Source: Mycobacteroides abscessus ATCC 19977
Lineage (GTDB): Bacteria > Actinomycetota > Actinomycetes > Mycobacteriales > Mycobacteriaceae
Assembly (NCBI RefSeq): GCF_000069185.1
Contig: NC_010397.1
Location: 4,216,001 to 4,280,000 of the forward strand
Length of the DNA stretch: 64,000 bases
Direction: 5' to 3'
Below the pieces are notes generated by a model. It did no database searches. It was not told the DNA's origin and saw only the letters and a program-made list of their open reading frames with translations. A program made the translations under genes and the position numbers. Of the stretch, positions 8,806 through 12,464 are shown piece by piece. The stretch's first letter is position 1; every line of letters starts with the position of its first letter.

Positions 8806-10308
8806 GTGAGCACCTCCGAGGACGCGACGGTCACGCGGCTACTGGTGAACTTGGCCGACGTCGAGGACCGGGGACTGCACTTCGAAGGTTCGTTCACTTC
8901 CTGGCGGGACCACATAGCCGAAAGCCGTCGTCTGGCCTCGGTATTACGCGCACGCCTGGATCCCTCGAAGCCGCCGCACATCGGCGTAATCCTGGAAAAT
9001 ACACCGGGTTTCGCGCGCCTGCTTACCGCAGCGGCATTGGCCGGGCTCGTGCTGGTGGGCCTGAACTCGACCCGACGCGGATCGGCTTTGCGGCGCGACA
9101 TCGAACTCGCCGATTGCCAGTTCGTGGTCGCCGACGAGTCCGATACCGTTGCCGGCTTGCAGCATCCGCAGATCGAGATCGCCGATGTGCGACCAGACGA
9201 CCTATACATGCTCATCTTCACCTCGGGCACCAGCGGTGATCCCAAGGCCGTACAGATCACTCATGCCAAGGTGGCGTCCGCGGGAATCATGCTGTCATCA
9301 CGGTTCGGTCTCGGCTCCACAGACGTCTGCTATCTCTCGATGCCGATGTTCCACTCCAACGCGGTGATGGCAGGGTGGTCGGTCGCCGTGGCAGCAGGTG
9401 CGTCGATTGCGCTGCGGCGCAAGTTCTCCGCGTCGGGATTTCTGGATGATGTACGCGAATACGGGGCGACATACGCCAACTACGTCGGCAAGCCCATGTC
9501 ATACGTGCTGGCGACACCGCAGCGTCCCGACGACGCCGAGAACCCGTTGCGGATCATGTACGGCAACGAGGCTGCCGCTGGCGATACCGACCGATTCGCA
9601 ACGCGATTCGGCGCCGTTGTGGTCGACGGGTTCGGGTCGACCGAGGGCGGTGTGGCGCTCGGGTGGGCGCCCGGAACGCCGCCGGGCGCCATCGGCCCTC
9701 TCACCCCGGATATTCAGATTCTGGATATCCAAACTGGTCGCCCCTGTCCCCCTGCGATTTTCGATCAAAGCGGCAAGGTGATCAACGCCGCTGAGGCGAC
9801 CGGCGAGCTGGTGAACGTCACCGGCCCCGGCCGGTTCACCGGCTACTACAAGAATCCCGAGGCCGATGCCGAACGCATGGTCGGCGGCAGGTATCACAGC
9901 GGCGACCTCGCCTACGCCGACGAGAACGGCTACGTATACTTCGCCGGACGCCTGGGCGATTGGCTGCGTGTCGACGGTGAGAACCTGGGCACCGCACCGA
10001 TCGAACGAGTATTGCTGCGCCACCCGGACATCACCGAGGTCGCCGTCTACGGCGTTCCGGACCCAACCGTCGGAGACCGGGTGATGGCGGCGCTCGTCGG
10101 TGCCGACTTCGATCCCGTCACCTTGAGCGAGTTCCTTTCCGCCCAGGAAGATCTCGGACCCAAGCAATGGCCGTCATTCATCCGGGTCAGCGGTGAGCTT
10201 CCCCGGACCGCGACGTTCAAGGTGATCAAGCGGCAGCTGTCGGCGGAGGCACTGGAGACCGCCGATCCGGTGTGGGCTCTGACGAACGGCACCTATACCC
10301 GAACCTGA
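8806..10308 (+). CDS. fadD17: Steroid/fatty acyl-CoA ligase FadD17
   Basis: 500 residues from a GTG at 8806. Adenylate-forming enzyme: the P-loop-like motif MLIFTSGTSGDPKAV lies around residues 135-149, YHSGDLAYADENGYVYFAGRLGDWLRV supplies the hinge Asp (about residue 380), and a C-terminal Lys in FKVIKRQL is the likely catalytic lysine. M. tuberculosis FadD17 activates C5 side-chain steroid acids to CoA thioesters; operon position after fadE26-fadE27 supports the same role. Its stop is 3 bases before the first 58-bp repeat of the DUF559 element, so that insertion has not damaged it. Confidence 0.9.
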   Translation: MSTSEDATVTRLLVNLADVEDRGLHFEGSFTSWRDHIAESRRLASVLRARLDPSKPPHIGVILENTPGFARLLTAAALAGLVLVGLNSTRRGSALRRDIELADCQFVVADESDTVAGLQHPQIEIADVRPDDLYMLIFTSGTSGDPKAVQITHAKVASAGIMLSSRFGLGSTDVCYLSMPMFHSNAVMAGWSVAVAAGASIALRRKFSASGFLDDVREYGATYANYVGKPMSYVLATPQRPDDAENPLRIMYGNEAAAGDTDRFATRFGAVVVDGFGSTEGGVALGWAPGTPPGAIGPLTPDIQILDIQTGRPCPPAIFDQSGKVINAAEATGELVNVTGPGRFTGYYKNPEADAERMVGGRYHSGDLAYADENGYVYFAGRLGDWLRVDGENLGTAPIERVLLRHPDITEVAVYGVPDPTVGDRVMAALVGADFDPVTLSEFLSAQEDLGPKQWPSFIRVSGELPRTATFKVIKRQLSAEALETADPVWALTNGTYTRT

Positions 10309-10311
10309 TCG

Positions 10312-10369
10312 CCGAACGTGCGAATCCGGTCGAATTCTCGCCGCAAATCGACACGATCCGCACGCTCGG
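10312..10369. repeat. 58-bp direct repeat, left copy (REP-like)
   Basis: An exact copy of 11265-11322. The ends are near-palindromic: CCGAACGTGCG at the left and CGCACGCTCGG at the right pair with one mismatch over 11 bases, and an inner GTCGA/TCGAC pair can extend the fold. It begins 3 bases after fadD17 stops and precedes the DUF559 gene. Confidence 0.92.
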
Positions 10370-10402
10370 AAATTTGTCGGTGGTCAATGTGATGCTCCAT
10401 TC

Positions 10403-11263
10403 ATGGGGGACGTACCGTGGCCACTCATCAGGTCCGAGGCACTCACCAACCGTGTGGTCACCGGATACGCCCTCCGGCAATTCACCGCGCTATACCCAGG
10501 CATCTATGCGCCCACAGACGCCCAGATCACTCCGCGTAAGCGGGCAGAAGCAGCGTGGCTGTGGTCAAGGCGCAAAGGAACCATCGCCGGCATATCCGCG
10601 GCCGCATTGCATGGCACCAAGTGGCTGCCACAGCAGGGCCCTGTCGTACTAATTCACACCAATCGTCGTGCTCCGCGCGGTATCACGTTGTGGAGCGATA
10701 GCCTGCCCGAGGGCGAGCGGATGTTCGTCGATGGGCTGCCTGTCACCACGCCCGCGCGTACGGCGTTCGACATCGGGCGGCGTACCCCCGTCGACCTAGC
10801 GGTGCAACATCTGGATGCCTTGATGAATGCGACGAGGCTTTCCCGCACCGATATCGAGACCGTGGCCACCCATCATCGGGGCGCTCGCGGGTTACACCAT
10901 CTGGCCAACGTTTTGGGCTTGGTCGACGGCGGCGCAGAATCACCATGGGAAACACGTACGCGGCTCCTCGTTGTACGTGCGGGATTTCCCGCCCCACAGA
11001 CACAACTCGTCGTCCGGAATCGTTTCGGCGACTTTGTCGCTCGCCTTGACATGGGATGGCCAGACCACAAGGTAGGCATCGAGTTCGACGGCGCGCAACA
11101 TTGGACGAGCGCACAGCAACGCACCCGGGACATCGACCGCGCCACAGAGTTGGTTGACGAGGGATGGCGCATCATTCGGGTGAGCTCCGATATGGTCCGG
11201 CATCGGTCGGGAACGATTCTCGCCCGAGTAGCCGAAGCATTCGTCGCCGCCCGGGCCGCGTAA
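10403..11263 (+). CDS. DUF559 (VSR-like PD-(D/E)XK) endonuclease-domain protein
   Basis: 286 residues. The N-terminal half (about 1-150) resembles the AbiEi-like domain often fused to DUF559 in actinobacteria, with AAWLWSRRKGTIAGISAAALHG. The C-terminal half (about 175-286) is a DUF559/VSR-like nuclease: SPWETR (Glu), ARLDMGWP (Asp), GIEFDGAQHW (Glu-x-Asp) and GWRIIRVSS. The possible catalytic residues look intact. No clear ribosome binding site precedes ATG 10403. The gene lies alone between two identical 58-bp repeats and interrupts a sterol gene cluster, which suggests a mobile or selfish origin. Its DNA target and any toxin-antitoxin role are unknown. Confidence 0.8.
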   Translation: MGDVPWPLIRSEALTNRVVTGYALRQFTALYPGIYAPTDAQITPRKRAEAAWLWSRRKGTIAGISAAALHGTKWLPQQGPVVLIHTNRRAPRGITLWSDSLPEGERMFVDGLPVTTPARTAFDIGRRTPVDLAVQHLDALMNATRLSRTDIETVATHHRGARGLHHLANVLGLVDGGAESPWETRTRLLVVRAGFPAPQTQLVVRNRFGDFVARLDMGWPDHKVGIEFDGAQHWTSAQQRTRDIDRATELVDEGWRIIRVSSDMVRHRSGTILARVAEAFVAARAA

Positions 11264-11264
11264 A

Positions 11265-11322
11265 CCGAACGTGCGAATCCGGTCGAATTCTCGCCGCAAA
11301 TCGACACGATCCGCACGCTCGG
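11265..11322. repeat. 58-bp direct repeat, right copy (REP-like)
   Basis: Identical to 10312-10369 over all 58 bases. It begins one base after the DUF559 stop codon. The unit distance between copies is 953 bases, so the gene plus one repeat forms a discrete module. Confidence 0.92.
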
Positions 11323-11348
11323 CGCGGGGACCGGCTACCGCGCGCTGA

Positions 11349-12464
11349 CTATCCGCGGATCTCGTCCAGCCTGTCCACCGCAGCCTCGAACCCCGATACC
11401 AGGTCGGCGACGATCTCCGCAGTGGGCCGGATCTCGTTCATCCGCCCCACGATCTGCCCCGCGGGGAAACACACCGTCTCCGGGTCATGCGCGCGGTTCA
11501 TCCGCTCATGCGCCTCGCTGACCAGAATGTTCTGCAACGGCATCGGTAACGGCGTAGGCGCATCCTCGGCATCCCAGGCCTGCGTCCACTTGGTCTTCAA
11601 GAGCCGCGCCGGCTTACCCGTGTAGATGCGGGTGCGCACGGTGTCACCGGAGGTCGCCTTCAGCAGGGCCTGCTGCACCACGGAATCGCCACCAGCAGTG
11701 ACGGTTCCGAGGTCGTACTCAGCGGCCGTGAGCCAGATCGAACCGGTCCATACCCCGGAGGCACCCAGCGCCAGCGCCGCCGCCGCCTGCCGTCCACTGC
11801 CGATACCACCGGCCGCCAACACCGGGGCACTGCCGTCGAGCGCGTCGACGATCTCCGGCCACAACACCATGGATGCCACGTCACCGGTGTGACCACCGGC
11901 CTCATAGCCTTGAGCCACAACGATGTCGACACCGTTCTCGACATGGCGCCGGGCGTGTTCGGCCTTACCTGCCAGCGCGGCGACAGGCACCCCATGCTCG
12001 TGGGCCTGGTCGATCACGTCCTTGGGCGGCGAGCCCAACGCGTTGGCGATCAGCTTGATCGGGTGCTTGAGCGCGACCTCAACATGAGAGCGCGCCACCG
12101 AATGCAGCCAGCCCAGCACGCCGGCCGACTCACGCTCTCCCGGCAGCGGCGGGACGCCCAGATCGGCCAATGTCTTCTCGACGAAGTCCTTGTGCCCCTG
12201 CGGGATCAACTTGTCGATATCCACCGCGGTACCCTCGGCGGGCACCTTGGCAGGCATCACGATATCGACGCCGTACGGTTTGCCGTCGGTGTTCTCGTCC
12301 ATCCAGTTCAGGACGGCGTCGAGCTCATCGGGATCGTTGAACCGAACGCAGCCCAGCACACCCATACCGCCCGCACGGCTGATCGCGGCGGCCACCTTCT
12401 CCGACGGCGTGAAACCGAATATCGGGTAACGGATTCCAAACCGCTCGCACAGGTCGGTACGCAT
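11349..12464 (-). CDS. Nitronate monooxygenase / 2-nitropropane dioxygenase-family flavoprotein
   Basis: 371 residues. TIM-barrel FMN enzyme of the NMO family: [10 protein letters not shown] at the N-terminus, GVPVAALAG, the [12 protein letters not shown] loop (about residues 183-194), and [21 protein letters not shown] (about 213-232) for phosphate binding. The start ATG 12464 is 3 bases after the fadD19 stop, so the two are cotranscribed. Similar genes accompany fadD19 in other sterol-degrading actinobacteria. In this setting an oxidation or enoyl-reduction step on a steroid acyl-CoA is possible, but the true substrate is not visible from the sequence. Confidence 0.82.

Follow-up and report, generated by a model that had tools for sequence, protein, structure and literature searches.

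Two identical palindromes bracket a nuclease gene

A 64,000-nucleotide stretch of the Mycobacteroides abscessus ATCC 19977 genome (NC_010397.1, positions 4,216,001 to 4,280,000 of the forward strand), referred to here as the window and numbered from its first base, contains a gene for a 286-residue putative nuclease (10403..11263, + strand) located between two 58 bp direct repeats (10312..10369 and 11265..11322). The repeats are 100% identical, their starts are 953 bp apart, and a preliminary description of the region had placed them correctly, the first 3 bases after the stop codon of the upstream gene (10308) and the second 1 base after that of the nuclease gene (11263). That description recorded palindromic symmetry at the ends of the repeat only, but the sequence is an imperfect palindrome from end to end (inverted-repeat score 15), with arms of about 21 bp and a 14 bp centre. 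The upstream copy, with a 56 bp core at 10313-10368, is positioned at -91 to -34 relative to the start codon, and between it and the gene is a promoter-like stretch, TTGTCGG ... GATGCT (10374..10396, + strand), that may act as the promoter; a motif of the TGTCGG/TGTCAG type is repeated at most of the loci whose flanks were inspected by eye. The neighbouring genes code for an AMP-binding ligase (8806..10308, + strand; fadD17 in the preliminary description) and a member of the nitronate monooxygenase family (11349..12464, - strand), and both form flanks that are common to filled and empty versions of the site.

When folded as DNA, the palindrome has z scores of -2.6 on the + strand and -3.9 on the - strand, and of only -0.5 with an extra 33 bp of flank. 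A covariance model constructed without the window copies, from 26 members, two of them drawn from the corresponding site of other species, recovers both window copies with E values of 3e-10; the next match in the window has an E value of 0.084.

The protein was previously described as an AbiEi-like domain joined to a VSR-like nuclease, and Pfam, AbiEi models and predicted folds all agree with this. Pfam reports DUF559 above its curated cut-off, MTES_1575 just below it, and no other families in the window protein; six paralogues likewise have only MTES_1575 and DUF559, apart from one weak nuclease match. AbiEi models match the protein (the PADLOC AbiEi match has an E value of 1e-14), and the predicted-fold matches listed include both AbiEi and EDxHD/Vsr structures. 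The protein thus has the predicted fold of an AbiEi-like DNA-binding half followed by an EDxHD/Vsr-like nuclease half, in which the nuclease residues are conserved. No transposase domain was found in the gene by Pfam, including the Y1 (HUH) tyrosine transposase domain PF01797. Weak TALE-repeat matches in a PDB sequence search, at about profile positions 118-170 of alignment A3 in the helical segment preceding the nuclease half, probably reflect composition; no stretch passes alone, and they were not used. The family is large: one search scored 7995 candidates, of which 5838 proteins had an E value of 0.001 or below.

Palindrome-bracketed nuclease genes are a general pattern

We compared the flanks of DUF559 relatives (-260 to +20 about the start codon versus -60 to +220 about the stop codon) in ten clade genomes and one outgroup, using 56 of 60 matches; the four excluded are a remnant of 32 residues, two further short fragments, and the second part of a broken gene. 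A further sample of 80 named loci, two of which have flanks that are too short, represents the best 80 of 528 and therefore consists of close relatives. With three doubly occurring loci counted once, a matching repeat pair is present at 110 of 131 distinct loci, 98 of them direct at a score of at least 20 and 12 inverted only. The association of DUF559 genes with palindromes, on which the preliminary description depended, thus extends to relatives of the window gene. Flanks displaced about 500 bp further out yield no direct pairs and one inverted pair at 129 loci, and chance is therefore excluded for the window repeats. Within the clade the threshold is reached by 43 of 56 own pairs, compared with 16 of 2288 cross pairs between loci with less than 50% protein identity. 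The repeats are direct in 70 of 113 pairs, as in the window, inverted in 41, and tied in two; in one class at site A (L009, L083, L084), the flanking repeats match in inverted orientation only. We conclude that the window locus is one case of a wider mycobacterial pattern of palindrome-bracketed nuclease genes.

An inverted repeat scoring at least 14 is present in 150 of 272 flanks and in 6 of 270 displaced flanks. The palindromes are of rather constant length, 56 or 57 nt in 123 of the 153 that were normalised from CGA to TCG, and covariation across 26 of them, a set biased by having been selected for palindromicity, shows changes on both sides at 18 of 21 pairs, with a score of 0.65 compared with at most 0.16 when the alignment is slid. 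The upstream palindrome usually lies at about -95 to -33 relative to the start codon, and the start of the downstream one usually falls in the interval from about 50 bases ahead of the stop codon to 8 bases past it. One distant relative in G310, only 30% identical (L099; G310:C1:1174523), sits between copies of a long-armed palindrome.

Each nuclease class has its own palindrome

A common repeat is shared by 0-1% of locus pairs with protein identity under 60%, a proportion that rises to 81% where identity exceeds 80%, and the two halves of the protein contribute unequally. This is clearest at sites A and B, two chromosomal positions that are occupied in all ten clade genomes by nucleases of different classes. 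At site B, with the truncated G220 copy excluded, residues 1-100 are 38-68% identical between classes and 62-89% within them, whereas residues 181-280 are 84-90% identical between classes and 86-93% within them; the same contrast is seen at site A, although it is less sharp. Where the nuclease halves are at least 75% identical and the DNA-binding halves less than 60%, half-site sharing is 0.58 (n=50), near the background of about 0.5, compared with 0.89 (n=67) where both halves are at least 75% identical. Across 5565 pairs of 106 loci, palindrome similarity correlates with that of the first half of the protein (Spearman 0.32, partial 0.24), and the partial correlation with the second half is 0.08. 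None of 500 permutations in a Mantel test reached the observed value, with relatedness still present in the data.

Judged by these comparisons, each nuclease class has its own palindrome, tied to the DNA-binding half rather than to the nuclease half, and the protein most likely reads the palindrome. The proposition that the nuclease acts on the 58 bp sequence is partly supported, in that class-specific palindromes follow the DNA-binding half, but it was framed too narrowly, since each class has its own palindrome.

Solo palindromes are dispersed in intergenic gaps

Searches of six genomes (five from the clade and the outgroup) with the covariance model gave 26 to 110 strand-matches per genome, including solo copies without a nuclease gene in all six; these counts derive from scoring 150 of roughly 1250-1580 candidates in each genome, a single site can count twice, and a few sites were themselves used to build the model. 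Eighteen solo sites were read in the M. abscessus genome itself, 16 of them among the matches listed by the covariance-model search and two from an earlier search of that genome. Seventeen match the palindrome of a resident class with a score of at least 23 and one (L237) with a score of only 17, and they fall into three classes of about 8, 4, and 6. Diverged copies of the family are present without the gene elsewhere in the genome, as the preliminary description required. One same-family palindrome, at G000:C2:351265-351320 (L004), lies behind another nitronate monooxygenase paralogue (46% identical) with about the same spacing as in the window (11322-11349), and a similar arrangement is seen in L017, L027, and L028.

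We then counted half-sites, gene-flanking copies included, for the two nuclease classes present at site B, which we refer to as B1 and B2. In genomes with a B2 allele, B2 half-sites at the exact span number 16 (G050), 12 (G298), 8 (G088), and 5 (G169); in those with a B1 allele there are 8 in G092, 2 in G220, 1 each in G147 and G190, and none in G000 or G310. Conversely, B1 half-sites number 10 (G000), 9 (G147), 6 (G310), 5 (G190), 2 (G220), and 1 (G092) in B1 genomes, and 2 in G169 and none in G088, G050, or G298 among B2 genomes; G172 has neither. Of the 58 B2-matched sites, 53 have exactly this one of the 13 spans allowed, and the B1 pattern at the wrong spacing finds 4 sites, none palindromic inside by eye, compared with 35 at the right spacing. 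Reversed patterns give no sites in any genome in either search. When genomes are ranked by the difference between B1 and B2 counts, 23 of 24 pairs fall in the expected order (by hand, an exact one-sided p of about 0.01, or 0.02 without gene-flanking copies), although this ranking is only indicative because the species are related. At site B, the counts are thus indicative of a solo family that tracks the nuclease allele, with one clear exception (G092).

A solo palindrome at orthologous positions in G050 and G298 (L252 1000-1060 and L255) has kept its arms, while by eye its centre has changed far more than its flanks, as if the arms were selected or the palindromes exchanged in place.

The positions of the solo copies bear on the explanation that the protein is an AbiEi-type autorepressor, with the upstream palindrome as its operator, the downstream copy as a terminator or second operator, and the solo copies as a regulon, with no movement involved. 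The AbiEi-like fold is consistent with this, given that the promoters of AbiEi relatives contain inverted repeats to which the proteins themselves bind, as is the placement of the upstream palindrome directly before a promoter-like stretch at most loci inspected. However, none of the 18 solo copies lies between divergent genes; 11 are in convergent gaps and 7 in tandem ones, and 16 are within 20 bp of a stop codon (genes being inferred from open reading frame length and GC content at third codon positions). G.T mismatches in the palindromes are no commoner than A.C (108 versus 138), which favours symmetry of duplex DNA over the RNA hairpin that would produce an excess of G.T, and at two solo sites a separate terminator-like hairpin adjoins the palindrome by eye; we rejected a terminator role on these two grounds. 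Regulation would also leave unexplained the conserved nuclease residues and the way in which cassettes at fixed sites are replaced and inverted (described below), and we consider it an unlikely account of the whole pattern.

Filled, empty, and exchanged sites

At the window site, six of the ten clade genomes have the gene with two palindromes (G000, G220, G169, G092, G310, and G147, those of G147 being of a diverged type), three have one palindrome and no gene (G050, G298, G088), and one has neither (G190). The suggestion that gene-free strains would retain a single repeat between fadD17 and the nitronate monooxygenase gene thus describes three of the four and fails for G190. Between species the gene is 73-82% identical, the nitronate monooxygenase gene 95-97%, and the compared stretches of fadD17 79-87%. 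The two palindromes within a genome are more alike here (normalised score 0.83) than are upstream copies across species (0.58), which is not so at sites C and A. In G310 (Mycobacteroides sp. LB1) the orthologue is split into two reading frames with both flanking palindromes retained (G310:C1:1504080-1505090; L038, L102).

Site C is filled in five genomes. Among its gene-free versions, G092 has one palindrome, which belongs to the family of the site and matches the downstream palindrome of the filled G088 site (L064) without a difference across 56 bases; G147 has one of site-B type (score 29), and G050, G298, and G169 have none. Solo palindromes of the site's own family are also found at site D in G169 (score 51) and, shortened, at site E in G050, G298, and G147 (score 23); at site D, G310 has one of another family (score 41), and the remaining versions of these two sites either lack a palindrome or have one that is decayed or of uncertain family. 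The G310 copy at site D is a relative of the long-armed L099 palindrome, as perhaps are decayed ones in G050 and G298 (score 14). A further candidate, site F (L207-L209), was dropped, the L207 stretch carrying another gene. The single-palindrome sites at the window and other loci are what would be expected if the gene moves into existing palindromes, as first proposed, but the three gene-free site-C genomes lacking one are not, and a pre-existing cognate palindrome may therefore not be needed.

Comparison of G088 and G092 shows replacement of entire cassettes. At site A, the flanks are 98.3 and 98.1% identical, whereas the genes are only 69% identical and the palindromes are different; at site B, cassettes of different classes lie in opposite directions between the same two flanking genes. 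Judged by eye, the points where identity is lost and regained lie no more than about 20 bp from the palindromes at site B and about 10-45 bp from them at site A, and so tight an exchanged unit would not be expected from long-tract allelic recombination. The site-B cassette is reversed in both G092 and G190 (L089, L088) relative to seven other clade genomes, G220 being left out of the comparison.

An alternative explanation for these sites is that host recombination or another enzyme moves the palindrome-bracketed cassettes, with the nuclease as a passenger kept for some other reason. Direct repeats permit excision by homologous recombination, and single-palindrome sites resemble the scars left as solo long terminal repeats, site C in G092 compared with G088 being an example. 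Passive ends do not account for a palindrome that tracks the DNA-binding half of the nuclease protein itself, nor for the observation that, among the 87 sites listed by the covariance-model search, all five pairs less than 5 kb apart bracket a DUF559 gene. We regard this explanation, too, as improbable.

A probable mobile cassette with a cognate nuclease and palindrome

The account that we consider probable, although not strongly so when taken as a whole, is that of a mobile palindrome-gene-palindrome cassette in which the two-domain nuclease is paired with a cognate palindrome of its own, as REP-associated tyrosine transposases (RAYTs) are with repetitive extragenic palindromes (REPs), discussed below. 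The AbiEi-like N-terminal half would bind the 56 bp palindrome, probably with one monomer per 21 bp arm, and the upstream palindrome may double as an operator. The EDxHD/Vsr-like C-terminal half most likely cleaves the DNA at the bound palindrome or close to it. Repair of the break could then either place a copy, of the whole cassette or just of the palindrome, in another intergenic gap or substitute the cassette for a resident one. Recombination between the two copies would then remove the gene and leave a solo palindrome, as the single-palindrome sites suggest. We hold with greater confidence than the whole that part which comparison of the loci themselves establishes, namely the bracketing, the class-specific palindromes, their dependence on the DNA-binding half, the dispersed solo copies, the gene-free sites, and the replacement of cassettes at fixed sites. 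The cassette family looks like selfish DNA constructed around a DNA-cutting enzyme.

Several observations weigh against this account. Binding, cleavage, and nuclease-driven movement are steps that we infer. Repeat pairs are lacking at 21 of the 131 loci, with an inverted repeat in one or both flanks at 17 of these. Both gene-flanking palindromes are intact, whereas insertion destroys a classical homing site, and no target-site duplication was seen by eye at site C, where the genomes compared are diverged. G190 holds the B1 cassette in the same inverted orientation as G092, so that the exchange at site B could have been a tight allelic one. G092 has a B1 allele but eight B2 palindromes, which may reflect a recent allele switch because its close relative G088 has B2. 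The number of solo copies of the window family, as pattern-matched sites in the ten clade genomes, is unlinked to presence of the gene: with flanking copies included, genomes with the gene have 5 (G000), 4 (G220 and G147), 3 (G092 and G310), and 1 (G169) sites, and those without it 5 (G050), 3 (G298), 1 (G088), and 0 (G190). Finally, no fresh insertions were seen between G050 and G298, in which the three placeable palindromes (two of the seven sites from G050 and one from G298) are present in both, the other five G050 sites being without a counterpart in the stretches compared.

The protein could instead be a restriction-like or abortive-infection nuclease whose fast-changing DNA-binding half tracks phage targets, with the palindromes marking self or acting in regulation. 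The PADLOC AbiEi match and the strong allelic diversity at fixed sites agree with a role in defence, but both neighbours at the window locus are metabolic genes, the class palindromes are chromosomal and dispersed, and no match to the gene region at the nucleotide level was found in 50,697 phage records. Plasmids gave none either, and a plasmid or phage origin of the cassette was rejected on these DNA-level comparisons, in which only close DNA is detectable. Defence therefore seems to us distinctly improbable. Chromosome-organising sites of a matS- or parS-like kind, read by a DNA-binding protein family, are very improbable: the numbers of dispersed palindromes reach tens in some genomes and they are common to both species at the three G050 and G298 sites compared, but one genome has three families among 18 solo sites, alleles switch between close species, and copy number varies from 0 to 16 sites.

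Comparison with known systems

The cassette resembles REP/RAYT elements, with a homing-type nuclease where these have a tyrosine transposase; the other known systems nearest to it are EDxHD homing endonucleases, AbiEi antitoxins, and Vsr mismatch endonuclease with the DUF559 Vsr-like proteins. A RAYT gene lies between two REPs in inverted orientation, with which it coevolves, and it changes rapidly (PMC2817692), and REPs and REPINs are dispersed, probably through the action of RAYTs in trans (PMC3116915). The mycobacterial loci share with them the gene between two palindromes, the cognate pairs, and the dispersal of palindromes in intergenic gaps (PMC2817692); coevolution of repeat and enzyme is indicated here by the swap control, the half-specific identities, and the Mantel test, with relatedness still in it. 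They differ in that RAYTs are Y1 HUH transposases rather than EDxHD/Vsr-like nucleases with an AbiEi-like domain, that REPs have a length of 20-40 (PMC3733652) rather than 56-57 bp, that REP pairs are always inverted whereas the mycobacterial repeats occur in both orientations, and that REPs number over 100 compared with at least tens of mycobacterial copies. Given that its enzyme differs from a Y1 transposase and its repeats can be direct, the mycobacterial system falls outside the REP/RAYT group.

Each half of the protein also has relatives with known DNA targets. Rv2827c, an AbiEi relative, binds 23 bp repeats 13 bp apart, 59 bp in total, in its own promoter (PMC7319586). In contrast to Rv2827c and the AbiEi antitoxins (type IV AbiE, MenA), the AbiEi-like half here is fused to a nuclease, and the palindromes are located on both sides of the gene and dispersed; at the window locus, the only one checked, no AbiEii nucleotidyltransferase toxin gene is adjacent to the nuclease gene. 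The target on which the EDxHD homing endonuclease I-Bth0305I dimerises is nearly 60 bp long (PMC3943268). The cassette is homing-like in its nuclease, by predicted fold and residues, but the gene is outside any intron or intein, its target is undisrupted with two intact flanking copies, and it has an AbiEi-like N-terminal half.

We found no open-licence papers linking DUF559 to such palindromes or describing these mycobacterial palindromes, although this is a weak absence. Whether this is a second, independently evolved enzyme-plus-REP system, in which EDxHD nucleases of the homing type with fused AbiEi-like readers spread their own 56 bp palindrome and bracketed gene copies in mycobacteria, and are retargeted when the reader half and the two palindromes are swapped as one, we regard as an even call. 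If it is, a very common gene group of unknown function acquires a function and a class of mycobacterial intergenic palindromes is accounted for. The natural swaps of reader half and target make the DNA-recognition code directly testable, and REP-like dispersed palindromes could then arise around a nuclease that is unrelated to the RAYTs.
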